Positions 8,593-35,106 of a stretch of DNA of 64,000 nucleotides are shown piece by piece. Each line of letters begins with the position of its first letter. Positions within the stretch are counted from its first letter, which is position 1. The notes beneath the pieces are model-generated. The model worked only from the letters and a program-made list of their open reading frames with translations. It was not told where the DNA came from and ran no database searches. A program made the position numbers and the translations under genes. The stretch is from Anoxybacter fermentans. GTDB taxonomy: Bacteria > Bacillota > Halanaerobiia > DY22613. Location of the stretch: contig NZ_CP016379.1 in the NCBI RefSeq assembly GCF_003991135.1, positions 2,976,001 to 3,040,000 on the forward strand. The letters are read 5' to 3'.

Positions 8593-10518
<1,926 letters not shown>

Positions 10519-10544
10519 TGTTAATTGAAAGGTAGGTATAGCTT

Positions 10545-13103
10545 ATGTCCATGGAAGGGATACAGAATGACCATGTAAAATTGGTTGGTATTGAAGATCA
10601 GATGAAAAATGCTTATCTAGATTATGCCATGAGTGTTATAGTAGGCCGTGCATTACCTGATGTCCGTGATGGTTTAAAACCGGTTCACCGGAGAATTCTT
10701 TATGCTATGTATGAATTGGGAATGTATCCTAATAAACCCTATAAAAAATCTGCGAGAATTGTTGGTGAAGTACTTGGTAAATACCATCCGCACGGAGATA
10801 GTGCTGTCTATGACACTATGGTTCGGATGGCCCAGGATTTTTCATATCGATATCCGTTGATTGATGGCCACGGTAATTTCGGTTCCATTGATGGTGATGC
10901 AGCTGCTGCCATGCGTTATACTGAGGCAAGAATGTCTCAAATAACTATGGAACTCTTGTCTGATATTGACAAAAACACAGTTGATTTCCGTCCAAATTTT
11001 GACGATTCATTAAAGGAACCGGAAGTTTTGCCAGCGCGTTTGCCAAATTTATTAATTAACGGTGCATCAGGTATTGCGGTTGGTATGGCTACTAATATAC
11101 CACCTCATAATTTGGGTGAGGTGATTGACGGAATTATTATGTTGATTGATAATCCTGAGGTTAGTATAGAAAAATTAATGAAGGTAATCAAAGGCCCTGA
11201 TTTTCCAACCGGTGGAATAATTATGGGTAGAAATCGGATTAAAAAAGCGTATAAAACCGGTCGCGGGCATCTAAAAGTTAGGGCCAGAACTAATATTGAA
11301 GAGATGAAAAATGGAAAACATAGAATTGTTGTTACCGAAATTCCATACCAGGTCAATAAAGCTAAGTTGATTGAAAAGATTGCAGAACTGGTACGGGAAG
11401 GTAAAATAAAAGGTATTACAGATTTACGCGACGAATCAGACCGTGAAGGTCTGCGGATTGTCATTGAATTGAGAAAAGATGTTGTTCCTAAAATTGTTTT
11501 AAACCAATTGTTTAAACATACTCGGTTGCAGGTTACTTTTGGGGTTATTAATCTGGTTTTAGTTAACAATGAGCCAAAAGTTTTAAACTTAAAGGAACTT
11601 CTTCAGGAATATATTTCACACCAAAAAGAAGTAGTAACCAGAAGAATCAAATATGATCTTAAAAAAGCAGAGGATAAAGCCCATATTCTTGAGGGTTTAC
11701 GGATTGCTCTTGCTGATATTGATCGGGTTATTCAGTTAATCCGTAGTTCAAAGGACACAGCGATCGCCAAAGAGCGTTTGATTGATACTTTTAAAATGAC
11801 AGAACGGCAGGCTCAGGCGATTTTAGATATGCGCTTGCAACGTTTAACAGGTTTAGAGCGGGAAAAGATTGAAATTGAATACAAAGAACTTCTTGAAAAG
11901 ATTGCTTTTTATAAAGATGTTTTGAATGATGAAAAGAAATTATATGGTATTATTAAAGAAGAGTTACTAGAGCTTAAAGAAAAGTATGCTGATGAAAGAA
12001 GGACTGAGATTGTCCAGGACTATTCTTCTCTGGATGCAGAAGATTTAATTCCTCAGAAAGATTCAGTAATTACTCTAACTCATCAAGGTTATATCAAACG
12101 GATGCCCCTCGATCTTTATCGAAGTCAACGTCGGGGTGGCCGTGGGATTACTGGTATGAGTACAAAAGAAGAAGATTTTGTTGAGTGCATGATAACAGCC
12201 ACAACACATGATTATTTCCTCTTTTTTACCAATAAGGGTCTTGTCTATCGGTTAAAAGGATACCAGATCCCTGAAGCTTCTCGACAATCCCGAGGTACAG
12301 CTATTGTTAACTTATTGGAACTTCAACCTGATGAACGAGTTACCGCTGTAATACCTGTTAGGAATTTCTCGGAAAATAAATATTTAGTTACTATTACAAA
12401 GAATGGATTAATTAAGAAGACACCACTTGTTGACTATGAATCCAAATATACCAGTTTGATTGGAGTTACTTTACGTGAAGGGGATGAATTGATCTCTGTA
12501 AGACTTGCAGAGGAAGGTCAGGATATTATTGTCGGTACTGCTCATGGTAAAGCAATTCGCTTTAGTGAAAGAGAAGTACGTTCGATGGGACGTTCTGCTC
12601 AGGGAGTCAAGGCAATTACTTTAGATCCTCAAGATTATGTAGTTGGTATGGGTGTGATTAGTGAAGGTAGCCGGATTCTGACGGTTACTAACAAAGGTTA
12701 TGGTAAATTAACTCTGGAATCTGAGTATCGTCCTCAAACTCGTGGAGGTAAAGGTCTTATTACTATACGACTTACTGAAAAGAATGGTCATTTAATTACA
12801 TTGCGCGTAGTGAACAAAGAAAAAGAGATTATGATGATTTCTTCAGGTGGAATCATGATCCGTATTCCTATCGAAGAAATTTCTGTTCTAGGTCGGAATA
12901 CTCTTGGTGTTAAGATGATGCGTCTTGATCCAGAGGATGAAGTAGTCTCTGTTGCGTTGATTGATCCAGAAGATGAAAAAGAGATAGAAGAACCAGAGAA
13001 AAACGATACAGATATCGATGAAATAGATGATTTAGATAATGACAAAGTTGATTATCCTGATTTTATAGATCAAGAATATGATGAAGATATAGGAGACGAT
13101 TAA
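10545..13103 (+). CDS. gyrA: DNA gyrase subunit A
   Basis: Breakage-reunion subunit, 852 residues. Catalytic Tyr is Y125 ([10 protein letters not shown]). The quinolone-determining region carries the sensitive-type residues S86 and D90 in [10 protein letters not shown]. The GyrA-box that distinguishes gyrase from topoisomerase IV is intact (QRRGGRG) and six beta-propeller blades follow. The tail from about residue 805 is strongly acidic (runs of D and E), as in other gyrases that tune wrapping. Confidence 0.98.
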
Positions 13104-19413: not shown

Positions 19414-19489
19414 GGGCCATTAGCTCAGTTGGCAGAGCACCTGACTTTTAATCAGGGTGTCGATGGTTCGAATCCATCATGGCTCACCA
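19414..19489 (+). tRNA. tRNA-Lys (TTT)
   Basis: 76 nt cloverleaf; anticodon loop CTTTTAA between CTGA/TCAG arms; acceptor GGGCCAT pairs ATGGCTC; CCA encoded. First of seven tRNAs between 23S and 5S. Confidence 0.95.
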
Positions 19490-19494
19490 TTTAT

Positions 19495-19586
19495 GCGAAG
19501 GTGGCGGAATTGGCAGACGCGCTAGATTCAGGTTCTAGTGGGCAATAAAAACGCCCGTGGGGGTTCGAATCCCTTCCTTCGCACCA
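19495..19586 (+). tRNA. tRNA-Leu (CAG)
   Basis: 92 nt class II tRNA with a long variable arm; anticodon CAG; acceptor GCGAAGG/CCTTCGC; CCA encoded. Confidence 0.94.
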
Positions 19587-19602
19587 GCTAGCTTATAGTC
19601 AT

Positions 19603-19677
19603 GCGAGAGTAGCTCAGTGGTAGAGCATCACGTTGCCAACGTGAGGGTCGCGGGTTCAAGTCCCGTCTCTCGCTCCA
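19603..19677 (+). tRNA. tRNA-Gly (GCC)
   Basis: 75 nt; anticodon stem CACGT/ACGTG with loop TGCCA; acceptor GCGAGAG/CTCTCGC; CCA encoded. Confidence 0.95.
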
Positions 19678-19678
19678 T

Positions 19679-19754
19679 GCTCCCATCGTCTAGCGGCCTA
19701 GGACACCAGGTTTTCAACCTGGCGGCACGGGTTCAAATCCCGTTGGGAGTGCCA
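19679..19754 (+). tRNA. tRNA-Glu (TTC)
   Basis: 76 nt; anticodon TTC in CAGGTTTTCAACCTG; acceptor GCTCCCA/TGGGAGT; discriminator G and encoded CCA. One base after tRNA-Gly. Confidence 0.93.
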
Positions 19755-19758
19755 TTTA

Positions 19759-19834
19759 GGGCGCATAGCTCAGTTGGGAGAGCACCTGCCTTACAAGCAG
19801 GGGGTCATAGGTTCGAGTCCTGTTGCGCCCACCA
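19759..19834 (+). tRNA. tRNA-Val (TAC)
   Basis: 76 nt; anticodon TAC in CTGCCTTACAAGCAG; acceptor GGGCGCA/TGCGCCC; CCA encoded. Confidence 0.95.
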
Positions 19835-19840
19835 TTTTGC

Positions 19841-19917
19841 GGAGACGTGGTGTAGTTGGTTAACATATCGGCCTGTCACGCCGAAGATCGCGGGTTCGAG
19901 TCCCGTCGTCTCCGCCA
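19841..19917 (+). tRNA. tRNA-Asp (GTC)
   Basis: 77 nt; anticodon GTC in GGCCTGTCACGCC; acceptor GGAGACG/CGTCTCC, G discriminator, CCA encoded. Confidence 0.95.
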
Positions 19918-19925
19918 TTATTTAT

Positions 19926-20001
<76 letters not shown>

Positions 20002-20020
20002 GTGAAAAGTGAATAAAGTT

Positions 20021-20136
<116 letters not shown>

Positions 20137-20151
20137 TTTTTTAAGTAACGC

Positions 20152-20227
20152 TCCCCAATAGCTCAGCTGGTAGAGCAACTGGCTGTTAACCAGTGGGTCG
20201 CAGGTTCGAGTCCTGCTTGGGGAGCCA
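20152..20227 (+). tRNA. tRNA-Asn (GTT)
   Basis: 76 nt; anticodon GTT in ACTGGCTGTTAACCAGT; acceptor TCCCCAA/TTGGGGA; CCA encoded. Its last bases belong to a repeat that recurs inverted at 29.3 kb. Confidence 0.95.
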
Positions 20228-22461: not shown

Positions 22462-23898
22462 TTATGCTGCTTGATATTGTAAGATAAATTCCTTAGCCAT
22501 CTGTATTAGTTTAGACCATCTGGCAGGCATATGAGGTAAGTCATTTAATTCAGGAATTACAACAGGTACAGAATTTTCAAGAGCTGAATGAGGTCTTAGG
22601 AAGTTGAAATAAGCAGTAAAGAGAACAGCGAAAGTTACAGAACCATCTAAGGACTTGAAGCCGTGAGTAGACCTATAGTTAGCTTTAAAAGTTCTGTGGA
22701 GGCGTTCAATAATTTGCTTAAGAGGTCTATATTCAGCAGAAATAGGGTCTTCATTGGTAAGTCCAATGACCTGATTAATATCAAAGTAAATGCCGTATTG
22801 AGCAAAGTACTGTTGAGCCAGAAAATAAATAGGGTTGCCATCAACAACGAAGGATAAATTATCAGGGATGGTTTTAAGTTTGGATAGAACATCATCTATA
22901 GCTTTGATGGCAGAAAGAGTGTCTTTATTAGGTGAGACGCGATAAGAGAGAATGATCTTTTTTACGGCATCGAAGAAGAAGAAAATATATTGCCATTTGG
23001 CATCGACTTTGATATAAGTTTCGTCTCCACAAAAGGAGTTGGAGAGTTGATAAGGGTAATGATCGACAAAAGGCTTGATAAGGCAAGCGACAGATTCAGC
23101 GTAGTTTAGTACGGTTTGATGAGATATTTTAATACCATGGATATCTTCCATCAAGGAAGCAGTATTTCTGGAAGAGAGTCCGTAGTTAACGTAATAAGTA
23201 AGAATCAAGCCCAGAGTATGAGGAGAAGCGTGAATTTTAGAGATATCTACATCAGGTATGGCAGGGCTGGATTTACTCAAAGGTTTGTAATCGAAGTTGA
23301 ACTGACGATAGATATAACGAACTTTAAACTCATGAGGAGCGATTTTAAATCTCTTTTTCTGTTCTTTAGACATAGAAGCAAGATTATTCAAATAGAAAGG
23401 GCAATTATCATTTTTGCATTTAAAGATAAAGTAGTCCTTACGTTCCTTAATTTTTTCGAGTCGTTTGGAGCAATGAGGGCATTTAAGAATGGCAGCCTTA
23501 GAATAGTAATTTTTAAAGTTGAAATTACAGGAACAGACTTTACATTTAAACTGTCCTCTGCCACCATTGTTATCATACAAATATTGATGAGGAGCGCCAC
23601 ATTGTGGGCATACAAGGTTATTGGGTATTTTAACTTTTTTGTTTTTATGACGTTTGATAGGTTTAAGAGGTTTACCATGTGAGTTTTGATAATCGATTAG
23701 AAGTTGGTTAAAGTTCAGTTTTTCAGGGATTTCAATAATGGGCATTTGATCAACCTGAAGTTTTCGGTAGGGTTTGTCAATCAATTTATCATGAGCTTTA
23801 AGAGTAATATGCTTACCAAGCAAAGAGCTGATGAGGAAAACAATGATTTTTTGTTGAATTTGAATGTATAACAGTAATATTTGAATTAATTTAATCAA
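22462..23898 (-). CDS. DDE transposase with N-terminal zinc ribbons
   Basis: 478 residues, intact. Two zinc-ribbon-like CxxC pairs: CPQCG...CKVCSC (about 97-126) and CPHCSKRL...CKNDNC (about 140-167). An HTH-like region follows, then an IS6-like catalytic core: first Asp in GDETYIKVDAKWQY, second in VVDGNPIYF, Glu in IIERLHRTFKANYR. Sits alone without an accessory ORF. Terminal inverted repeats were not identified, so element ends are unknown. Its insertion probably removed the start boundary of the first gene cassette downstream. The family assignment is approximate. Confidence 0.8.
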   Translation of the reverse strand: MIKLIQILLLYIQIQQKIIVFLISSLLGKHITLKAHDKLIDKPYRKLQVDQMPIIEIPEKLNFNQLLIDYQNSHGKPLKPIKRHKNKKVKIPNNLVCPQCGAPHQYLYDNNGGRGQFKCKVCSCNFNFKNYYSKAAILKCPHCSKRLEKIKERKDYFIFKCKNDNCPFYLNNLASMSKEQKKRFKIAPHEFKVRYIYRQFNFDYKPLSKSSPAIPDVDISKIHASPHTLGLILTYYVNYGLSSRNTASLMEDIHGIKISHQTVLNYAESVACLIKPFVDHYPYQLSNSFCGDETYIKVDAKWQYIFFFFDAVKKIILSYRVSPNKDTLSAIKAIDDVLSKLKTIPDNLSFVVDGNPIYFLAQQYFAQYGIYFDINQVIGLTNEDPISAEYRPLKQIIERLHRTFKANYRSTHGFKSLDGSVTFAVLFTAYFNFLRPHSALENSVPVVIPELNDLPHMPARWSKLIQMAKEFILQYQAA

Positions 23899-24068
23899 GG
23901 TTTGCTACCCCCTTCTTTTTTTGGTGATTTGGTTTGGTTAATTCAAATATACCTTAAAAAAAAGGGGTGGCAAGTTTTAAATAAAAAAAAATTAGTAATA
24001 TCAAGGGGTTATGGTCAAAAACTTAAAAAAACTTTTGACAATACGCTTTGGCAAAAAGGAGGGTAAAA

Positions 24069-24797
24069 ATGAGTGATTCAGAAATAAGAATCAAGCCAAA
24101 AGCGGGAGCTGGAGATGTGGCCTACACAGCCTTAAAGGCAGGTCTTTCAACGATACCGGTTATTGATGGGCTAGCCGCAGAGATTTTCTCGGCAATTATT
24201 GTTCCTCCACTTTCTAAGCGGCGTAATGAATGGATAGAATCAATCGCCAAAGGTCTCAAGGCGCTAGAAGAAAAAGTTGATGATTTTAATATTGAAGCTC
24301 TTTCTCAGAACGAGATGTTCATCACAACAGTTATGCACGCGAGTCAAGCAGCGATTCGCAATCATCAAAAAGAAAAACTTGAAGCTTTGCGCAATGCGGT
24401 TCTAAATGCAGCTTTACCAAATGCTCCAGAAGAAGATATTCAACTTATGTTTCTTAACTTTGTTGATACTCTTACGCCATGGCATTTGAGAATATTGAAA
24501 TTCTTTGACAACCCCCAAGAATGGGGGCGAAGAAACAGTATTACATATCCAAACTGGTCAATGGGCGTCCCATCAACCGTTTTAGAACACACCTTTCCAG
24601 AATTGAGAGGGCGACGCGATTTTTACGATCAGATTGTGAAAGACCTATTTGTTCGGGGATTAATGAACATAGAGTCTTTGCATGTTACTATGACTTCACA
24701 AGAGATGTTTGCTTCTCGTACAACGGATATGGGAAAGCAATTTATTAACTTTATTACATCACCAATTGAGAGTGATGATGAAAAACAACAAAGTTAG
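24069..24797 (+). CDS. Cassette 1: hypothetical protein
   Basis: 242 residues. ATG 24069 directly follows AAAGGAGGGTAAAA; an in-frame TTG further upstream is not needed. I do not recognise a family. The N-terminal third has a hydrophobic stretch (TALKAGLSTIPVIDGLAAEIFSA) that could insert into or lie on a membrane; the middle is helical and charged (LKALEEKVDDFN; HQKEKLEALRNAV); the C-terminal half looks globular. The stop lies 12 bases before an attC-like site, the usual spacing in integron cassettes. The cassette's own 5' boundary (expected GTTAGCC) is missing, apparently lost at the transposon side. Confidence 0.7.
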   Translation: MSDSEIRIKPKAGAGDVAYTALKAGLSTIPVIDGLAAEIFSAIIVPPLSKRRNEWIESIAKGLKALEEKVDDFNIEALSQNEMFITTVMHASQAAIRNHQKEKLEALRNAVLNAALPNAPEEDIQLMFLNFVDTLTPWHLRILKFFDNPQEWGRRNSITYPNWSMGVPSTVLEHTFPELRGRRDFYDQIVKDLFVRGLMNIESLHVTMTSQEMFASRTTDMGKQFINFITSPIESDDEKQQS

Positions 24798-24809: not shown

Positions 24810-24892
24810 GGCTAACATGGTGTATGCGGTTCGCTACGCTCACCAAATGCTAGGCTTTACCTCGCACTTCGCATACACCGAGAACGTTAAGT
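24810..24892 (+). other. attC-like recombination site 1
   Basis: R'' GGCTAAC at 24810-24816, R' GTTAAGT at 24886-24892. Inner arms GGTGTATGCG and CGCATACACC pair; unpaired GAGAAC-type bases flank the R' side. 83 bp. All features match the RYYYAAC...GTTRRRY layout of integron attC sites. Confidence 0.85.
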
Positions 24893-24930
24893 GAAATTGT
24901 GCTTAGAATGTTAATAAAGGAGCAATAGGT

Positions 24931-27775
24931 ATGGGAAAATTAAAAATATTAGCAAGTGGGGATTCTCCACAGGCTCAAGCTCAGGCAAGGGGGAAACTGT
25001 TTGAAAAGTTGATGGCAGAAGTCCTACGACAGTTAGGTTATGAAATCGATCGCATCCCCAATATTAACTATGCAGGGATGGAAATTGACATAGAAGGGAA
25101 ATCAACTACTACACATGGTTCCACTTTATGCTGAATGTAAATATTCTGAAGCAAGTATTGATTCACCTAAGTTACAAGCTTTTTTTGGAAAATATATGAC
25201 ACGTTGGTTTAAAGATAAACGAAGTCAAGCTTTATTTATCGCACTGCCCGGCATTAACAGCCATGCTAAGGGGTTTTATAGGGAGAACATTGAGAGTAAT
25301 TCAGGCATTACGTTTCGTATTCTAGAAGAAGATGATGTGCTTGAAAAACTTTTTAGATTTACGGACATTGCGCAACCAGAAATTATTGCTAAAAACATTC
25401 CAACAAATATTGGTTCACCAGGAGATTGGTCTTTAATTTACACAGATAAAGGAATGTTTTGGGTTCAATATATTATCCCTACAGGTGGAGGAATACCTAA
25501 CAAAATCGCAGTCTTTGATGCAAAAGGAAATCCCATATCAGACAGAGCAACTGTAGATTACTTAATACAACTCTACCCTGAAATTGGTGACTTTGAAATA
25601 ATCACTATTGAGAATGTTACCATATCGCAGACATCAAGGGTTCAAAAAGAAGCAGAGCAAATTGTGGAGGTTAAAGGGAGTTCTACATGCTTTGAGTACC
25701 AATTCCCAGCTTCACCAGAATATTTTGTTGGCAGGCAAGAGGTTTTAAGTGAAGTGTATTCATATACAGAAGCAGTAATAGGTAAAAAAACTTCCTCCAG
25801 GGGTCTTCTATTTGAGGCTAATTCAGGATGGGGGAAAAGTTCGGTTGTTCTTGCCTGTGTGGACCGTCTCAGACAAAAGGGGCATTTTGCCATTGCTATA
25901 GACTCTCGTTCAGCATCATCTTCTCAATTTATTCTGCACGTGGTAGATTACGCTCTTTCAAAGTTTGGAGATTTTGATGGCTTGCTTTCCGAAGGGCAAA
26001 TAACCAAAATAATTACAGGCTTTGAGGGTGCTGTAAAAACTCTTGTAAACATAGGACAAATTCTTGAACAACATAACAAAGTTATGTTTATATTCCTTGA
26101 TCAATTTGAGAATCTCTTCTTTTCGCATGAGGCTTTGGTGAAAATTAGAGATCTATTTTTAAAAATTCAGGATGCTCAAACAAATGTGGTGTTAGGGTTT
26201 TCTTGGAAAACGGATCTTGTTGGTGTAACTAGTGAATTCCCTTATCGAATACGAGATAACATTCGAGATTCAAGCAAGCAAATAAACTTAAGTACCTTTT
26301 CTAATGTAGAAACTGATGCACTTCTAGATAAACTGAAAGAAGAATTGGGTATACGAACACTGAGGAAGGATCTTAGGTTTTTTCTTTCCGAATTTTCTCA
26401 AGGTTATCCTTGGCTGCTAAAGAAACTCTGTGCTCATGTCAAAACTCAAATAGAAAATGGTACTCCTCAGGCAGACATAGCCTATAGCCTTCTAAACATT
26501 GAGGAACTTTTCCAAGAAGACTTACGAGGTTTATCTCCGGAGGAGGAAGACGTATTACGGCGAATAGCTAAATTAGCACCAATTAGTGTTCAAGAATTGG
26601 GAGAAGAATTTAAACCTGAAGTAATTCAAAGCCTGGTTCATCGTCGGTTGTTAGTGAGAATCGGCAATAAATATGATGTGTACTGGGACATCTTCCGTGA
26701 TTATTTGAATTCAAGCCGTGTTCCCGTCCAAGAAAATTATATCTTACGTACGCAGGTTGGAAGTGTTTTAAGGGCTATCAAATTGCTAGTTGAAGCGGGT
26801 GGTAACCTTTCAACTTCGGATTTCCAGGAACGTACAAATCTATCGGAGAAATCACTTTACAATGTTTTGCGAGATATGAGGTTGCTTGGTTTTATAAAAG
26901 TCGATAAAGATAATATTGCTCTCTTAATCGATCTTCCTAAAGAAACAGAAGCTTTTGAGGAAGCTTTAAGAAATCATTTGCGAGAGAGGCTTAAACGCAA
27001 TCGCTTGATTTGGCGTATCTTGAAGACATTGGAAGACAGAGAAAAATTAACAATAAGTGAAGTATCAGAATTACTTGAGAATTCTTGTCCGTACATCTCC
27101 GCTACAGAAAAAACTTGGCAAACGTACGCACATAGTTTTGCAAAATGGATGCATTTTACTGTCTTGGTAATATACAATAGTAGGGAAAAGGTACTTTCTC
27201 GCTATACACTTGGAGCAACAGAAGTTCGTGACCTTCGTCCTTTCCTAGCCAAGCGACGAGGTGGGATAGTAGCTCCTCCTATTCAATTTACACCTATTGA
27301 AAGGGTAGCAATTAGACTGGTCGATGCCCGCAGGCAAGGAGGCAGAGTGAACTGGAGTGGGTTTAAAAGGAGTACTGTCAAGAAATCTCTAGTAGCTCTT
27401 GAAGAACTGGGTTTTATTCGTCGCAATCCAAGTTCTATTAGCTTGCTTCCAGATATTGAAGGTTTCGTAAACTCTCCAGAAAAGCGCCCCGAGATATTTG
27501 CAAAAGCTGCCTTAAATATACATTCATTTGCTATATTCATTGATATACTTCAAGAAAACAAAGACAAAAAGTTATCTCTTGCTGAACTTGGAATGAAACT
27601 CAAGGAAAAACTTGGCACGGATTGGAAAGAAGGTACTGCTAAAACAAATGCTAAAATAATGCTTGATTGGGCACGCCATGCAAATCTTGCACCTGGGGTT
27701 TGGTCATATAAGTGGAGAAGAAAAAGTATAATTTCTCAACCGACTTTATTTTCTGATTTTGAAAAGGAGGAGTGA
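24931..27775 (+). pseudogene. Cassette 2: restriction-endonuclease-STAND NTPase (frameshifted)
   Basis: N-terminal piece (24931-25134) ends prematurely; deleting one G near 25117-25118 joins STTTH to VPLYAECKY and restores a nuclease domain of PD-(D/E)xK type: helix GKLFEKLMAEVLRQLGY, Asp in GMEIDIEGK, then AECK. The long piece (25115-27775) continues with a STAND-type NTPase: FVGRQEVL at about 205-211 of that piece, Walker A EANSGWGKSS (234-243), Walker B IFLDQFEN (326-333). The C-terminal 400 residues look like repeated winged-helix domains rather than TPRs. This architecture resembles Avs-like antiviral STAND proteins with a nuclease effector; the defence role is inference. ATG 24931 has GGAG upstream. 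The single-base shift may be a sequencing error or real decay. Confidence 0.75.
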
Positions 27776-27799
27776 AAATAATTTGGAAAGCACAACTTC

Positions 27800-27884
27800 A
27801 CTTAACAGCGGGTATGCGGTTCGCTATCGCTCATCCAAACCTTTCGCTACGTTCAGGGCTTCGCATACCCGCGGAATGTTGTGC
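27800..27884 (+). other. attC-like recombination site 2
   Basis: R'' ACTTAAC (27800-27806) is the exact reverse complement of GTTAAGT, the R' that opens this cassette at 24886. R' GTTGTGC at 27878-27884. Arms GCGGGTATGCG and CGCATACCCGC pair. 85 bp. Confidence 0.85.
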
Positions 27885-27906
27885 GCAATCAGGAGGATGG
27901 TTAAAA

Positions 27907-28663
27907 ATGGATAGGAGTAGAATAGATCCCAAAGAATTTCAAGAGTCTATCACAAAAGAGCTGGATACTATCAGGAATAGAGTAAGAAATTTAATAGGGA
28001 CTTCCCATTGGGGAGAAGAGGGGCAATATAAGGAAGCTATCTTGAAAAATGTGATAAGAAGATTTCTACCGAGCAATTTATATTGGAACAGGTTTTGTAA
28101 TTAAGAGAAATAACAACGAAACTCAAATTTCTAATCAGATTGATATAATAATCTACGATAATACAATTCCCGTCTTCTTTTCAGAAGGAGATTTTGTCAT
28201 TACAACATATAAAAATGTAAAAGGAATTATTGAGGTGAAGACTAAAATAAGAAATAGCGAATTGGAAGAAGTTATAAGAAAGGCAGAGGATAATGGAAGA
28301 TTGATTGGAAGGGAAATATTTAATGGGATTTTTAGCTATGAGTACGACAAGAATATAGAGTCAAGAAGTGTATATCGCGCTTTAAAAAATGCAAGAGGTT
28401 ATGTGAACCATATATCATTGGGGAAGGATGTGTTTATTAGATTCTGGAGAAAAGAGGATAGAAACAGATTAAATCCTCCAGTTGAGAACTGTGAAAGTGA
28501 CTTTTACAATATTTATGAACTTAGAGGTTTATCGTTTTCTTACTTTATATCAAACTTACTGGAACTAACTTGTTCTTCAAAGCTTGATGATAGATGGTGG
28601 TTTTTATATCCTATCGTGGGAACTAAAGAAAGACACAGGGTGAGAACAATATGTTTGGATTGA
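27907..28663 (+). pseudogene. Cassette 3: DUF6602-like nuclease (frameshifted)
   Basis: ATG 27907 with CAGGAGG upstream. The first part (DRSRIDPKEFQESITKEL...FLPSNLY) is followed, after a one-base frame change near 28070-28085, by IGTGFVIKRNNNE, SNQIDIIIYDNTIPVFF, GDFVITTYKNVKGIIEVKT and onward to the stop at 28661-28663. The IDIIIYD and IIEVKT segments form the D...ExK core of a PD-(D/E)xK nuclease as in DUF6602 proteins, which are common in defence islands. Frame break may be an error or decay. Stop lies 10 bases before the next attC site. Confidence 0.7.
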
Positions 28664-28673
28664 GCCTGACTGC

Positions 28674-28767
28674 GCACAACAGGTGGATATGTGGTTTCGC
28701 CCTTATGGGCTACGCCCAAATTTGCCCACGAAGTGGGCAAACTTCACATATCCCCGAAACGTTATAG
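28674..28767 (+). other. attC-like recombination site 3
   Basis: R'' GCACAAC (28674-28680) is the reverse complement of GTTGTGC at 27878, closing cassette 3. R' GTTATAG at 28761-28767. Outer arms GGATATGTG/CACATATCC pair, and inner hairpins GGGCTACGCCC and TTTGCCCAC/GTGGGCAAA add structure. 94 bp. No partner CTATAAC box was found for the next cassette, so the array seems to be cut after this site. Confidence 0.85.
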
Positions 28768-28936
28768 GGAAATTTTTAAATAAAAAATCAGCGGAGAAGC
28801 CCGCATCTTCATAAATACCAAAAAGTTCCCAGCCCTTAAACTTTCGGCTTTTAAGAAAATTTAGAAAGGATAAGAATAGAGAACAGATTTATTTTTCTTT
28901 ATTGGTAAAAATTTCTTTATTTCTTATTTCCTACAA

Positions 28937-29095
28937 CTACTTATCAATATCTTCTTTTCTAAATCTCCATTGATTAGCAATTTTCACAACAGGGATTTTG
29001 CCTTCCCTTGCCATTTTATAAAGAGTAGATTTTCCTATTTTTAGATATTTTCCGGTCTCCTCAAGGGTCATTATTTCAGAACACCCTTCCATCAT
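28937..29095 (-). CDS. Excisionase-like helix-turn-helix protein (HTH_17 type)
   Basis: 52 residues: LEETGKYLKIGKSTLYKMAREGKIPVVKI then WRFRKEDID, the classic single wHTH of Xis/MerR-like DNA-binding domains. ATG 29095 has AAAGGAG upstream and a good promoter. Such proteins regulate or direct excision of mobile elements. No integrase is adjacent. It belongs to a duplicated segment whose other copy (22.1 kb) has lost the gene. Confidence 0.8.
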   Translation of the reverse strand: MMEGCSEIMTLEETGKYLKIGKSTLYKMAREGKIPVVKIANQWRFRKEDIDK

Positions 29096-29346
29096 GGGTT
29101 AACTCCTTTTTTGCCCGCCAAAGTTTATCACCATTTAACATCACATAATAATATATAGCAAAGAAAAGCAAAAAGTCAAGTCCATTTTCAAAAAAATTTT
29201 CTTTTTTGAGCGGGTGCGGGTGGGCTTATTATCATTCCAAAATAGGAGAAAGAGAAATTTTTATTTTCCCGCCTTCTCCCTTGTGTGGGTGAGACGGAAG
29301 GATGTTCTGAAAGAGTTTGAAACAGCTATTAAAATTGCTCCCCTAA
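29096..29346 (-). repeat. Inverted repeat, right copy (tRNA-flank homologue plus HTH promoter)
   Basis: Its reverse complement matches 20216-20377 followed by 22102-22190. Contains on the minus strand TTGACT (29174-29179) and TATATT (29150-29155), the promoter of the HTH gene. The outer end (GGGGAGC at about 29338-29344, minus strand) resembles the acceptor end of tRNA-Asn. Confidence 0.8.
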
Positions 29347-29653
29347 TTGACGGCTCTTTCAAAATTTGAATAGGGTCTTTTTGGGTAAGTTCTGGAAATT
29401 CAAGAAATTCAACATCTATCCTGAATCCGTGACACTTTTTTAAATTTAGTACTTTCTGAACTTTTTTCTAGACATCTATGAGACAAAATACAGCAATAAA
29501 GTAATTTGATTATTAATAAATATATATTACTATTTTATTAGCCTTAAAAAAGACAATAAAATACTACCTCTTTCCGAAATCTATAAAAGATCCAGAAAAA
29601 GTTAATTTCTAACTTTATCTGCTTGTTATATATCAACAATAAGATATATTTAC
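29347..29653. other. Intergenic stretch, no gene seen
   Basis: AT-rich; no supported frame, RNA or clear promoter. Lies between the right inverted-repeat copy and a short palindromic repeat. Confidence 0.5.
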
Positions 29654-29793
29654 ATGATTATACTGCAAAAAGCTAATTTTTCGCTTCATAAAGAAATTTT
29701 TCGAACCATCTAAAGTTCGACTGAAATCTTACTAAGATGGTTTAACGAAAAATTTCTATGTCGTTCAAAATTAGCTTTTTGTAGTATGATCAT
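29654..29793 (-). repeat. Palindromic MITE-like repeat, copy 3 (short form)
   Basis: Both terminal arms are present (ATGATTATACTGC ... GTAGTATGATCAT) but the central cloverleaf hairpins are deleted: the TCTAAAGTTCGA arm runs straight into CTGAAATCTTACTAAGATGG. Confidence 0.88.
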
Positions 29794-29832
29794 AGTATAT
29801 ATAAAATTAAAAGTGAGGTTATCAAGTTTGTC

Positions 29833-31071
29833 ATGAATCCAATTAAGAGCTATGATTTTAACATAAAGTTATATAAATATTATATTATTTTATCCAGGGC
29901 CCTATTTATATGGCCAATAATGGTGGTTTTTTTAAGGAGTAAGGGCTTATATTTTACCGAAATCATGTTGTTGAATTCAATAAGTGGTTTTTTAACATTA
30001 GTTTTTGAGGTTCCGACAGGAGTATATGCTGATAAAGTGGGAAGGAAAAACAGTGTTATAATAGGATTATTCTTTAACATACTTAGTTTTTTAGTTTTTG
30101 TATTGACAAATGATTTTAAAATTTTACTTTTATCCAGTCTTTTTGGAGCCTTATCAGATGCTTTTATTTCAGGTGCAGATTCGGCATTACTTTATGAATC
30201 AATGAAATACGCTAATAGATTAGAGGAGTATGATAAGACTATTTCTAATATTCATTCATTGTGTTTTTATGCTTCAGCAATAACAGCTATAACTTCCAGT
30301 TTACTTTATGATTTAAATAAGTACTTTCCTATGTATTTATCAATTATATTTTTAACAGTTGCTATGATCATTAGTTTTTCTTTTAAAGAACCTCCGAAAG
30401 AAGAGAAGAAATCTGCTGAAGTTAAATTGGATATAAAGACTCAGTTTGTATCGTATTTTCAACATATACAGGAAAGTTTCAAATATGTTTATAGTAACAG
30501 GGATGTACTGTATACAATATTTTTGTACTTTATTTTTATGTTATATATTTCAAATATGAACTATCTTTCACAACCTTATATGCAAGACATTGGAATTCCC
30601 GTTATTTATTTTGGAATAATCTTTTTTGTGTTTAATATTATTGCAGCAAATTCAGCAAAGTTAAGTCACCTCTTTAAAAATCGTTTTAAAGATACTTCAT
30701 TTAACATAATAATTATCCAAATGGTTATATGTTTTCTTTTGCTAGGTTTGACACGTAATTGGTATGGTGTATTATTATTGATGTTCGGTAGAATAGCTAC
30801 AGGATTGACATGGCCATTATTGGATAGTCGCTTAAATAATCAGATACCATCTAAGCAGAGAGCAACTATAATTTCTCTTAAAAGTTTTGTTGTTAGTTTA
30901 TCTTTTGTGATTTTTGATCCGATTATTGGATTTTTGATAGATTGTTTTAATATTTTTACGACATATTTAATTTTGGGTGTATCATTATTATCGGTCTATA
31001 TTGTTGTTAAGCTAACTGGAATAAGACGTATAAAATCTAAGTTCTTCAGGTTGAAAGAGCAATTAAGATAA
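29833..31071 (+). CDS. MFS transporter, drug-efflux type
   Basis: 412 residues with about 12 hydrophobic segments. The loop 2-3 signature of the major facilitator superfamily is visible (GVYADKVGRKNSVIIG). Substrate unknown; related proteins export drugs or small metabolites. ATG 29833 with a modest GTGAGG site. The last codons overlap, in another frame, the beginning of a protein-kinase remnant, so the native C-terminus may have been replaced. Located in the accessory region without partners. Confidence 0.85.
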   Translation: MNPIKSYDFNIKLYKYYIILSRALFIWPIMVVFLRSKGLYFTEIMLLNSISGFLTLVFEVPTGVYADKVGRKNSVIIGLFFNILSFLVFVLTNDFKILLLSSLFGALSDAFISGADSALLYESMKYANRLEEYDKTISNIHSLCFYASAITAITSSLLYDLNKYFPMYLSIIFLTVAMIISFSFKEPPKEEKKSAEVKLDIKTQFVSYFQHIQESFKYVYSNRDVLYTIFLYFIFMLYISNMNYLSQPYMQDIGIPVIYFGIIFFVFNIIAANSAKLSHLFKNRFKDTSFNIIIIQMVICFLLLGLTRNWYGVLLLMFGRIATGLTWPLLDSRLNNQIPSKQRATIISLKSFVVSLSFVIFDPIIGFLIDCFNIFTTYLILGVSLLSVYIVVKLTGIRRIKSKFFRLKEQLR

Positions 31072-31292
31072 TAAAAACATCCAAACCAGAAGAATTTGTT
31101 AAAGCATTTAAGGAAGCATAAATACTTGAAAAATGTCGTCATAACCATATTGTTGATGTTAAAAATGCTGATATAGAATTTATTAATTCTCAACCTAAAG
31201 CGTTTATTGTTATGGAATATTTGCAAAAAGGGTCAGTTCAAAAGTATCTAGAAGAAAATTTTATTTCTGTAAAAAGTGTTGTCAGTTTGTAA
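31053..31292 (+). pseudogene. Ser/Thr protein kinase fragment
   Basis: Frame RAIKIIKTSKPEEFVKAF, TAA at 31119-31121, then ILEKCRHNHIVDVKNADIEF and AFIVMEYLQKGSVQKYLEEN corresponds to kinase subdomains II to V (AIK lysine, hinge MEYLQKGS). Both ends are missing: no glycine loop and no catalytic HRD or DFG. One in-frame stop replaces a Lys-like codon. A dead fragment next to an attC site. Confidence 0.75.
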
Positions 31293-31383
31293 CGGGAGCA
31301 CTTTGGGGAAAGCTAAAATTGAGAGTTTACAACCAAATTTTTATTTTAAAGGAGCATTCCTGTAATAAATAAATTTGGAGTTA

Positions 31384-31462
31384 GATAAAAAAAGGAGAAT
31401 GCTTAGTATGCGGTTTAGAACTATCAGAAGACGAATTGAAAGTACTCAGGTTGTTGGAATAA
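31384..31462 (+). pseudogene. 3' remnant of a cassette gene
   Basis: The frame KKGECLVCGLELSEDELKVLRLLE ends with TAA at 31460-31462, 10 bases before attC site 4, the spacing seen in the intact cassettes. There is no start codon in frame. A longer frame on the same strand runs through the attC site and is not credible. Confidence 0.4.
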
Positions 31463-31472
31463 CTGCAATGGC

Positions 31473-31557
31473 GGCTAACAGCGGGTATACGGTTCGCTAT
31501 CGCTCATTCAAATGCTCGGCTTTGCCTCGCACTTCGCATGCCCGCAGAACGTTATCT
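31473..31557 (+). other. attC-like recombination site 4
   Basis: R'' GGCTAAC (31473-31479), R' GTTATCT (31551-31557); arms GCGGGTAT/ATGCCCGC. Its internal part (GGTTCGCTATCGCTCAT, CTCGCACTTCGCAT) is close to sites 1 and 2. 85 bp. Confidence 0.85.
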
Positions 31558-31597
31558 GAAATGCTATTGTATTTCTTAGAATTAAGGGGAGATTTAA

Positions 31598-32134
31598 TTG
31601 GGAGAGAAAAACTTAGCTAAGAAAAAAGTCCTTTTTATAGTATATATCATTTTTTTAGCTTATCTAATAATGCTAGTAATATATCCTTTTTTTCATGAAT
31701 TAGGGCATCTAATGTCTGCAAAATTTTTTGGTGGAAAAATTAACGGTATGAAATTAGCTTTTTTTCAAGCAAAAGCTTTTTTTCAAGGTACATTTAATTC
31801 ATTTCAATCAGCAATAATTCATATTTCTGGTTTTGCTTTACCATTTATAATTTGGTTAGTTTTTATTTTGATTGTACCAAAGAAAGCACATCCTTTATTT
31901 GAAATTTTTAAAATATTATTTTCGGGAACAGTTATAGGGTCTATGTTAGCTTGGATTGTTATACCAATTATATTTGAATATAAGAAAGCACCAGTTGGTG
32001 ATGATGTAACAAGATTTATGGAGAAAATAAATGTGAGTGGCTTCTGGATAAGTGGCATTTTTTTAATAATATTTTTATTTAGTATATTTCTTTTTATGAA
32101 GAAACTAGGAGATATTAAAGATATCTTTAAATAA
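31598..32134 (+). CDS. Cassette: membrane-embedded metalloprotease-like protein (M50)
   Basis: 178 residues, four or five hydrophobic segments. Zinc motif H33-E-L-G-H37 lies at the end of the first helix, as in site-2 protease/M50 proteins; a later Asp that would be the third ligand is not obvious (GDDV near residue 135 is a candidate), so activity is uncertain. TTG start at 31598 with AAGGGGAG upstream. Flanked by attC sites 4 and 5, whose boxes GTTATCT and AGATAAC are exact complements. Confidence 0.75.
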   Translation: MGEKNLAKKKVLFIVYIIFLAYLIMLVIYPFFHELGHLMSAKFFGGKINGMKLAFFQAKAFFQGTFNSFQSAIIHISGFALPFIIWLVFILIVPKKAHPLFEIFKILFSGTVIGSMLAWIVIPIIFEYKKAPVGDDVTRFMEKINVSGFWISGIFLIIFLFSIFLFMKKLGDIKDIFK

Positions 32135-32157
32135 AAAATGTAACAAGGTAGCACTTC

Positions 32158-32303
32158 AGATAACATGATATTTCCGTAACGCCTAGTGGCTACCCTACGG
32201 GATGCCCTCTGTCACAAAGCTTGCAGTGAGCTAAGTTAGTGAGGGGCAAGCTTTGCACCAGGCCTTTGGCACAGGCACATCGAAAATACCCGGAACGTTA
32301 GCC
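32158..32303 (+). other. attC-like recombination site 5 (long)
   Basis: R'' AGATAAC (32158-32164) complements GTTATCT at 31551. R' GTTAGCC at 32297-32303. 146 bp with large inner inverted repeats (AAAGCTTGCAGTGAG / GGGCAAGCTTTG), longer than sites 1-4 but similar to site 6. Confidence 0.82.
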
Positions 32304-32329
32304 GAAATTGGCTTTTAGGAGGGGGATTT

Positions 32330-33361
32330 ATGCCACAAGAAATGAGATTATGGAAAATTGAATCTAATGACAGATTGAAGGAAATTAACATATCTAGATT
32401 GGATTTAGAAGAAAGAATAGAAAATTGGCTTGAAAATGATATTAGTATGATATCAGATAACCTATTGGTTATTGGTCGTCAAGTTAAAACGGATTATGGT
32501 AAATTTATTGATCTTCTTTGTTTAGATATTAATGGAGATGCCGTAATTATTGAACTTAAACGAGATAAAACCCCTAGAGATGTAATAGCCCAGGTATTAG
32601 ATTATGCAAGTTGGGTTAAAGAATTATCTAATAAAGAAATAACAGACATAGCTAATAAATATTTATCTAAAAAAAACATGGTTTTGGATGAGGCATTTGA
32701 AAACAAATTTAATATAGAGTTGCCAGATGTTTTAAATGAAAATCATAAAATGTTTATAGTAGCATCTGAAATGGATAGTAGTACCGAGAGAATTATTAAT
32801 TATCTTTCTGGCGAATATGGTATAGGTATAAATGTAATAACATTTCAATATTTTCAAGATGAAAATCAAAATGAATATATAGGAAGAGTATTTTTAATTG
32901 AACCAGAACAAGTAGACTATAATATTAAAATTAAATCTGGTAGTAAAAGGAGAAGGAATTTATCTTTTGAAGAATTAGAAAAAATGGCTGAAGATAATGG
33001 AGTTTTAGAACTATACAAAAATCTTACGGGTAGGTTACAACATTACTTTGATAGGCAAAGTTCCACTATGAGTTCTACAACCTTTATAGGAAAAATGGAA
33101 GGAAGTAATAAAACTATACTGGGTGTATATCCAGAGAAAAGTAGTAGTGAAAAAGGTTTATATTTTTCAATATATATAGAAAGATTAGCCAAATATCTTA
33201 ATGTAAGTAGAGATGAAATAATAAATCACTTACCAAAACGGTTCAAGGAAAAGAATTTAAAAGAAGCATGGTCCGGAGGCCCATTAATGTTATCAGGCTT
33301 TCTTAAAGATAATAATGAAATTAATAATTTTATTGATTGGATTGAAGAGATAAAAAAATAA
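32330..33361 (+). CDS. Cassette: NucS/DUF91-like PD-(D/E)xK nuclease
   Basis: 343 residues. The N-terminal half has the DUF91/NucS-type core: IGRQVKTDYGKFIDLLCLD with Asp61, then AVIIELKRDKTPRDVIAQVL with Glu75 and Lys77. The C-terminal half (SFEELEKMAEDNGVLELYKNL onward) resembles a nucleic-acid or substrate-recognition domain not recognised further. ATG 32330 with TAGGAGGGGG. Likely acts on DNA; defence or repair role is inference. Bounded by attC sites 5 and 6 with matching boxes. Confidence 0.8.
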   Translation: MPQEMRLWKIESNDRLKEINISRLDLEERIENWLENDISMISDNLLVIGRQVKTDYGKFIDLLCLDINGDAVIIELKRDKTPRDVIAQVLDYASWVKELSNKEITDIANKYLSKKNMVLDEAFENKFNIELPDVLNENHKMFIVASEMDSSTERIINYLSGEYGIGINVITFQYFQDENQNEYIGRVFLIEPEQVDYNIKIKSGSKRRRNLSFEELEKMAEDNGVLELYKNLTGRLQHYFDRQSSTMSSTTFIGKMEGSNKTILGVYPEKSSSEKGLYFSIYIERLAKYLNVSRDEIINHLPKRFKEKNLKEAWSGGPLMLSGFLKDNNEINNFIDWIEEIKK

Positions 33362-33370
33362 GCTAATTTC

Positions 33371-33525
33371 GGCTAACAGGGTATTTCCTCTACGGCCTGT
33401 TGGCCTGCCTAACGGACATGCTCTTTGTCATAAAGCTTGCAATAAGTGAGGTGAGTGTGGGAGAGGGCAAGTTTTACGCCAGACCTGACGGTACGGGCAC
33501 GTTGGAAATACCCAGAACGTTAGGC
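33371..33525 (+). other. attC-like recombination site 6 (long)
   Basis: R'' GGCTAAC (33371-33377) complements GTTAGCC at 32297. R' GTTAGGC at 33519-33525. Outer arms GGGTATTTCC/GGAAATACCC pair exactly. 155 bp. It opens a further cassette (start MKRRK at 33558) that is cut after a few codons by an IS256-type element. Confidence 0.85.
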
Positions 33526-34913: not shown

Positions 34914-35106
34914 CATAGAAATTTTTCGTTAAACCATCTTAGTGAGATTTTAGTCGAAATAAGGCCTTATCACAGAATGTGATGAGCTAATCAGGGGCCA
35001 GGATGGCCCATTGATTAGTGTGCCTTATTTCGGCTGAAATCGAACTTTAGATGGTTCGAAAAATTTCTTCATGAAGTGAAAAATTAGCTTTTTGCAGTAA
35101 AATCAT
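34914..35106 (+). repeat. Palindromic MITE-like repeat, copy 4 (left end missing)
   Basis: Starts abruptly at CATAGAAATTTTTCG exactly where the IS256 element ends, lacking the ACTGCAAAAAGCTAATTTT arm; the right end GCAGTAAAATCAT is complete. The missing arm is not found on the other side of the IS, so a deletion accompanied or followed insertion. Confidence 0.88.

Follow-up and report, generated by a model that had tools for sequence, protein, structure and literature searches.

The 64,000-nucleotide stretch of the Anoxybacter fermentans genome analysed here (the window; positions 2976001-3040000 of the single contig of 3,557,532 bases that makes up genome G000) carries a row of six attC-like sites with co-oriented genes between them, in the manner of the gene cassettes of an integron. 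The six are real cassette boundary sites, and the arrays formed by them and their relatives in other genomes very probably are an integron-like class of their own, separate from the known integrons with an IntI integrase. An initial annotation of the window had described the same six sites, with AAC...GTT boxes and paired inner arms, and in this it was right. They are listed with their outer boxes (R'' first, R' last) and their scores with the covariance model R2, described below.

24810..24892 (+), attC-like site 1, 83 bp, GGCTAAC ... GTTAAGT, R2 44.7 bits
27800..27884 (+), attC-like site 2, 85 bp, ACTTAAC ... GTTGTGC, R'' complementing the R' of site 1, R2 41.3 bits
28674..28767 (+), attC-like site 3, 94 bp, GCACAAC ... 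GTTATAG, R2 42.9 bits
31473..31557 (+), attC-like site 4, 85 bp, GGCTAAC ... GTTATCT, R2 43.0 bits
32158..32303 (+), attC-like site 5, 146 bp, AGATAAC ... GTTAGCC, R2 32.6 bits
33371..33525 (+), attC-like site 6, 155 bp, GGCTAAC ... GTTAGGC, R2 39.3 bits

The six sites are cassette boundaries

A first covariance model (R1), built from the six window sites, was used to find relatives, and the model R2 was made from 97 matches that it gave in other genomes, including one antisense echo. The decisive result is that the six best R2 matches in the 64 kb are the six sites; the next match that does not overlap them reaches 12.9 bits. In the 97 rows all 11 pairs of the inner stem (the L-stem) vary on both sides, and the cells in which both partners have changed number 292 against a mean of 91.5 after shuffling. 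Paired cells make up 93.8%, compared with 35.1-42.4% when the columns are slid by 1-2 and 20.6-42.4% when they are slid by 1-3, in an alignment that is model-fitted and leans to structure.

In the bookkeeping of cassettes, the R' box of one site and the R'' box of the next are complementary at seven of seven positions in four of the five neighbouring pairs (24886/27800, 27878/28674, 31551/32158 and 32297/33371), the four that the initial annotation had cited; the fifth, which it had not counted (28761 GTTATAG and 31473 GGCTAAC), matches at four of seven. In the part of the window from 20 to 40 kb there is no second copy of the box that would open the cassette before site 1 or site 4, and no copy of a box to close 33519 save one within site 6; a box that would close 28761 has four copies there, all at places without a site. 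Stop codons had been placed 10-25 bases before each site, and this holds at five of the six, where they lie 9 to 24 bases 5' of it, but fails at 31473, directly before which no gene of at least 80 amino acids ends.

Hairpins that follow stop codons at 9-24 bases in five of six cases could also be transcription terminators, RNA elements or small transposons. This is already contradicted by the bookkeeping, it leaves the complementary boxes, the attI result and the moved cassettes described below without a reason, and no Rfam family matches the sites at E<=1 (two sub-cut-off matches in the window both lie outside them). We regard it as hardly conceivable.

Arrays in related genomes

Related sites in other genomes had been made a test of the initial annotation, and they were found. 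In 398 genomes sampled from the phylum of the window, a strict R2 search with ten candidates scored per genome gave sites at E<=0.001 in 44 (genomes are denoted below by G numbers and loci by L numbers). The longest array, in G387, has 49 sites over about 56 kb among the rows used.

Neighbouring boxes were compared in 26 stretches, five of them with a single site, with the 150 best of 182 matches (A4) and 47 of 75 later matches hand-picked from nine loci. The 28 later matches left out were antisense echoes, G000 sites, rows from L225, L226 and L236, minus-strand rows from L227, a site truncated by a contig end, and three rows with E-values of 0.06 (one row) or over 0.1 (two rows). The boxes match at seven of seven positions in 93 of 131 pairs less than 1500 bp apart, where permutation gives a mean of 25.6 and a maximum of 41 (n=5000). 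At gaps above 1500 bp 14 of 39 pairs match, and a lower rate is expected there if intervening sites were missed. An earlier R1-based count that included the window gave 46 of 96 pairs (permuted mean 16.6, maximum 28, n=2000), and one antisense echo was dropped from each of the two counts. Cassettes are also found in more than one place: within one array two are near-identical (L062:7697-8678 and L064:2187-3169, 98.8%), and cassette DNA is common to G082 and G343 (780 bp at 96.3%) and to G387 and G125 (840 bp at 85%).

In G151 (L226:2246-12513) three copies of a 2-kb block (length approximate), 99.7-99.9% identical, lie around the sites close to a remnant of a recombinase.

Architecture of the sites

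On the top strand the six sites have a common plan: R'' (NNNYAAC) is followed by one A and by a stem arm about 11 bases long; a loop that varies separates this arm from its complement, and after five further bases, mostly RGAAC, comes R' (GTTNNNN). The arm has 10 bases in site 6 and there are mismatches in sites 4 and 5. By sequence the spacer is asymmetric in all six, a single base on the R'' arm facing five on the R' arm, and in five of the six minimum-energy folds of the bottom strand one of the five bases pairs with the single base and leaves a 4-base bulge on the R' arm. An attC site is defined (in the excerpted text of PMC2727003) by its R and L boxes, by a central spacer that stays unpaired and by a base of the R''-L'' arm that is extrahelical. 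Seven of nine class-1 and cyanobacterial attC sites that we folded have the extra base on that arm; the DIM and OXA-4 sites gave minimum-energy folds without the expected stem. In the bottom-strand folds of the window, a check that the initial annotation had itself proposed, an extrahelical base in the stem is lacking in five of the six sites, and site 3 alone has a stem with a bulged base.

The boxes are looser than RYYYAAC...GTTRRRY, as which they had been annotated: the AAC and GTT cores are there, but the strict forms occur in one and two of the six sites, respectively (computed for four sites and judged by eye for 31473 and 32158). A strict scan of the window found nothing because the real boxes are looser, and it was replaced by a looser stem scan with shuffles. 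Its scores are 9 to 11 for four of the six sites and below the cut-off of 8 for 31473 and 32158; 100 shuffled windows gave a mean of 0.46 stems per strand at a score >=9 and 0.08 at >=10. N-padded copies of the sites were used because a whole-site MAFFT alignment misplaced two long ones.

As a stand-in for canonical attC, a covariance model (R3) was made from five class-1 sites. It recovers its training sites, further copies, one site near a DIM cassette and one Kovacikia site, and it is narrow, missing two of three Kovacikia sites that were identified by eye. At E<=2 it finds no sites in the window nor in the five array loci given to it, and nothing on five other IntI loci (L175, L176, L180, L184, L185), where the presence of attC is not established. 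R2, for its part, finds nothing at E<=0.2 in three canonical integron stretches with class-1 attC included. A count was also made that needs no model. When strong stems between AAC and GTT boxes were counted on one strand, and a spacer pair of (1,5), or (5,1) for arrays on the opposite strand, was scored with one shuffle per set, the pair was found in 38 of 79 stems in 12 array loci (shuffle 1), 10 of 38 in 21 recombinase loci (shuffle 0), 9 of 53 in 31 mostly Bacteroidota loci (shuffle 0) and 0 of 6 in 14 IntI loci (shuffle 0). With this asymmetric spacer, no extrahelical base in five of six and no match to the stand-in R3, the sites cannot be called attC sites of the canonical kind, and the initial annotation is not borne out in naming them integron-type attC.

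A recombinase without the integrase insert beside the arrays

A search with the integron integrase model TIGR02249 first gave recombinases below its cut-off beside arrays. An alignment of ten of them (A6; 45-55% identity to the first row) has the conserved motifs of tyrosine recombinases, an N-terminal extension and a C-terminal SPLD motif common with IntI, and in all ten rows the IntI-specific insert is absent. The distance from GKG to HxxR is 66-67 residues in all rows of this type that allowed the measurement (11 of 24), and 107-108 in IntI rows where it can be measured. A quick tree of 58 rows unites the 14 IntI rows in one branch, with a support of 100 in the approximate likelihood ratio test SH-aLRT; it includes one Treponema row and one Coriobacteriia row, which also measure 107. 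The array recombinases fall outside that branch, and 15 rows of the type found in the phylum of the window, one of them archaeal, group with SH-aLRT 90. With the family model NF040815 (cut-off 220), L077 scores 228.3, L065 215.9 and L073 212.2 bits. Phage records gave three weak relatives.

The predicted structure that we used was made from an alignment of 29 rows and has a mean predicted local confidence (pLDDT) of 81; a single-sequence version with 37 was set aside. The solved relatives by sequence are VchIntIA 2a3v (E 8.1e-59, in two stretches), archaeal Xer 4a8e and XerA 5hxy. Compared by fold, mainly over residues 119-381, 4a8e reaches Z 23.3 with a root-mean-square deviation (rmsd) of 9.3, 5hxy Z 21.2 (rmsd 14.8) and 2a3v Z 20.6 (rmsd 2.9, 255 aligned), and the core is a Xer-like fold without the insert.

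Recombinase and sites go together. A6 matches at E<=1e-75 occur in 36 of the 398 genomes, and we counted as members of the type the 21 genomes with a match of at least 389 bits. Ten of these 21 have strict R2 sites, against 34 of the 377 others. The contig ends within 1 kb after the recombinase gene in five of the 21 (G280, G104, G343, G132, G313), and in 13 of the 16 remaining loci there are downstream sites on the same strand, some at weak E-values (G364, G040, G118, G281, G048, G067, G322, G275, G256, G082, G053, G006, G336; 0.00055-0.03 at G281 and G067). G098 has a single weak site downstream of its recombinase, and fragmentary recombinase copies head arrays in G387, G383 and G182. IntI above the NCBIfam cut-off is found in two of the 398 genomes (G311 and G124) and in none of the 44 with R2 sites.

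A profile search of genome contigs with A6 gave at least 589 matches, from which 80 named loci were kept. Among the matches listed for these 80, R2 at E<=0.5 finds seven sites, all downstream on the recombinase strand: three in Flavobacterium aciduliphilum DSM 25663 (L117) and one each in Algoriphagus ornithinivorans (L120), L124, L128 and L186. A smaller search gave one more site in Rufibacter (L118, E 0.0021), and Aquiflexum (L115) has one by geometry. Relatives of the recombinase also occur on two Chryseobacterium plasmids and one plasmid of Rufibacter tibetensis, partly followed by co-oriented genes; R2 has two sites on L246 (E 8.1e-5 and 0.052) and none on the plasmids L247 and L248.

On the Rufibacter tibetensis plasmid, short hairpins missed by R2 lie between co-oriented small genes 3' of the recombinase (L248:12946-18053), and by eye they are possibly a third site architecture. 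On a contig of Undinarchaeales, two members of the recombinase family lie in tandem (L109:8454-9596 and 9917-11035). The stretches examined of the long arrays L066-L068 (G125) and L069 (G256 C13) contain no member of the family. In G256 there is one on a different contig, with sites of its own (L224), and G125 has a shorter match of 356.9 bits at 666773-667609, followed after about 7 kb by one site.

If the recombinase inserts cassettes beside itself, a box complementary to the R'' of the first site is expected after its stop codon and before the first cassette. Among 22 loci chosen for a recombinase with a detected downstream site, it lies within 160 bp after the stop in 17, compared with 3 of 428 mismatched controls. 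Judged by sequence, attI is thus downstream of the recombinase in the relatives; the window, which has no recombinase, has no attI. An inverted repeat before attI occurs in 6 of 16 loci and in 10.7% of 460 controls, and it was not used as proof because this enrichment is modest, though the repeat had looked convincing by eye.

These results also bear on the view that the window is an ordinary cluster of attC sites lacking integron integrases (CALIN), the IntI of which was later lost or acted in trans, as the initial annotation had it. Co-oriented cargo and bookkeeping are indeed as in integrons, and IntI does occur in the phylum sample (G311, G124). But the architecture of the window sites is unlike that of class-1 and Kovacikia attC, R3 finds none of the window sites and R2 none of the canonical ones, none of the 44 genomes with R2 sites has an IntI over the cut-off, and the recombinase that adjoins the arrays is not IntI, having no insert and a place outside the clade. 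An ordinary CALIN is therefore very improbable, and what stands of the initial annotation is that these are cassette boundary sites, that the array has no integrase, and that this genome and others have more such sites.

A probable separate class and how it might work

What can be read from the sequences themselves is the sites, their bookkeeping and covariation, the position of attI, the linkage to the recombinase and the orientation, and from these we infer that the recombinase beside the arrays carries out the cassette reaction. In the model that we propose, a tyrosine recombinase with an extra N-terminal domain and without the I2 helix, in those relatives that have kept it, would insert circular cassettes at an attI that lies some 40 to 150 bp beyond the stop codon of the recombinase gene. 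Each cassette would carry one attC-like hairpin site, cut beside the GTT of the R' box, so that it opens with TTNNNN and closes with a matching NNNNAAC half-site. The site is probably recognised by its folded shape, an 11-bp stem in which the sequence varies and the pairing is kept, and polarity would be marked by the fixed asymmetric spacer, for which the R'' arm has one base and the R' arm five. HARP domains have a role in binding junction DNA, and the N-terminal domain, which has a HARP match (PF07443) below the cut-off, might help to hold the folded DNA.

That recombination takes place on folded single strands is the part of the model we favour with some reserve. A Xer-type enzyme could give the same integron-like outcome by acting on double-stranded palindromes, which would deny the single-strand step only and is compatible with a separate class. 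It would account for the missing I2, a helix that cassette capture is said to require and to which the recombination of single strands is ascribed (in the excerpted text of PMC7790495), and archaeal Xer, XerA and VchIntIA lead the fold comparison. Against it, the stem sequence varies with the pairing kept and the asymmetric spacer recurs across genomes, which suggests that shape is read rather than duplex sequence. We find the duplex route unlikely, though far from negligible.

Several observations weigh against a separate class or against parts of the model. R2 is independent of the window in its training rows only, for R1, which found those rows, was derived from the window. The minimum-energy fold of site 5 (bottom strand) lacks the expected stem. 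There are R2 sites in 34 of 377 genomes without a strong recombinase match, and recombinase loci without any site despite searchable sequence (G126, G012). At five of the 22 loci the attI box is not within 160 bp (L065, L073, L226, L115 and L218); in L065 it is degenerate and at 159, in L115 it is at 861 bp, and in L073 and L226 the first detected site is far away. The enrichment of the inverted repeat before attI is, as mentioned, modest. In the tree, branch support among the non-IntI recombinases is low, and L113 and L128, which had been assigned to the group beforehand, fall nearer IntI with weak support. Finally, the N-terminal HARP matches of 14.9 and 13.1 bits are below the Pfam cut-off of 25.

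Relation to known systems

With IntI integrons the class shares a tyrosine recombinase with an adjoining attI, co-oriented cassette arrays, sites that are folded palindromes, AAC/GTT boxes and the bookkeeping of cassettes. It differs in the recombinase, which has no insert, an extra N-terminal domain and a place outside the IntI clade, and in the sites, whose extra unpaired bases are on the R' arm beside the R box and not, as the canonical extrahelical base, on the R''-L'' arm. The arrays are not filed as IntI integrons because two testable defining features, the integrase insert and the attC architecture, are absent. A CALIN is likewise a cluster of cassette sites without a nearby integrase, but the sites here are of another architecture. 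Archaeal integrons also have attI immediately downstream of the integrase gene, but archaeal IntIs carry the IntI-specific additional domain (both in the available part of PMC9668308). The integron-like subgroup of simple tyrosine recombinases and the family NF040815 are of the same sequence class, but the available part of PMC8138268 describes no cassette arrays or sites for insert-less members. XerA, XerC and XerD share the catalytic core and have no insert; the recombinase here differs from them by the extra N-terminal domain, attI, the cassette arrays and the SPLD motif common with IntI.

Integrons are very abundant in Gamma- and Betaproteobacteria and occasional in Firmicutes, where IntegronFinder 2.0 gave one complete integron (Limnochorda pilosa) and a few CALIN (in the excerpted text of PMC9024848), and a survey of 2008 found no intI in 103 complete Firmicute genomes (according to the available part of PMC2426708). 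Some of the published Firmicute CALIN may belong to the class described here. Among the papers that our searches listed, from a literature without preprints and with few subscription papers, none describes such a class in its title or abstract opening, which is no proof that it is unpublished. The class matters because the published view holds I2 to be necessary for cassette capture: according to the excerpted text of PMC7790495, I2 is known in no other protein, the helix together with single-strand recombination belongs to integron integrases only, and the lack of intermediates is named as a limit. If our reading is true, a recombinase without I2 that has arrays of dozens of cassettes would be such an intermediate or an independent solution. 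That the class is either an ancestor of the IntI systems or an independent invention has, in our opinion, about an even chance. It could also account for integrase-less clusters in Gram-positive genomes, and would add a new pool of cassettes, including candidate defence genes, which we suggest escapes attC models of the class-1 type.

The window array as a probable relic

The genes of the array and its flanks are as follows.

22462..23898 (-), transposase left of the array, DDE_Tnp_IS240 match
24048..24797 (+), cargo before site 1, 249 amino acids, no Pfam or PADLOC match, start of the cassette not found
24931..27775 (+), cargo of cassette 1, a 67-aa frame (24931-25134) and then an 886-aa frame (25115-27775), nSTAND1 and AAA_assoc_C matches, apparently an interrupted reading frame
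27904..28663 (+), cargo of cassette 2, DUF6602 / PD-DExK-like gene in two frames (27904-28104 and 28136-28663)
28768..31472 (+), stretch in which the bookkeeping fails, with an MFS gene (29833-31071) and, by eye, a kinase-like remnant
31598..32134 (+), cargo of cassette 4, M50-like membrane peptidase, 178 aa
32330..33361 (+), cargo of cassette 5, NucS_C-like, 343 aa, candidate defence model PDC-S11 at 243.5 bits
33866..34357 (-), piece of a Mutator-family transposase right of the array, with similar DNA at L233 and L234

Since the pair 28761/31473 fails and brackets the MFS gene and the kinase-like remnant, an insertion between these sites, or a loss by deletion between cassettes, is probable. 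The two apparently interrupted genes in cassettes 1 and 2 fit an array that is no longer maintained.

The absence of an integrase from the window, as first annotated, extends to the whole of G000, where the best TIGR02249 piece has 53.3 bits and the whole protein 91.0 (cut-off 265). There is no A6-type recombinase either, the best match, at 111.4 bits, being a Xer-like protein. A search of the rest of the genome had been proposed for IntI and for more sites; it gave none of the former, and the following R2 sites.

667613-667670 (-), 52.1 bits
1769182-1769247 (-), 41.3 bits
3063791-3063943 (+), 36.8 bits
1.9336-1.9397 Mb, a second cluster of six R2 matches, all on the minus strand, some weak
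2667939, a marginal site

The second cluster looks decayed because only one of its five neighbouring pairs has an exact box match. Single sites at 667, 1769 and 1937 kb are directly 3' of GTPase-like, methyltransferase-like and CPBP-like genes (names by reading). With six sites in 8.7 kb and neither IntI nor an A6-type recombinase in the genome, the window holds a cluster of the CALIN kind with sites that are not canonical attC. Lying between two transposases, it looks like a relic, a CALIN-like array of the separate integron-like class. The array and the scattered sites of G000 look like remnants; otherwise they would have arisen in trans, or at a time before the recombinase was lost.

Some further features were seen in and around the array. 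An A+T-rich palindrome of about 76 bp lies at 29686-29761, in the stretch where the bookkeeping fails, and scores 11.0 and 11.5 bits with R2 on the two strands. The kinase-like remnant and the stretch upstream of it (31081-31350) resemble L013:2860-3058 by eye; the latter precedes the gene in the lone 667-kb cassette, and its window counterpart precedes site 4. At 34916-35069 the TwoAYGGAY RNA family scores 36.3 bits, which is below its cut-off of 43. A cluster of eight tRNA genes lies at 19414-20227, a few kb upstream of the array, and by eye it seems to be preceded by rRNA genes.

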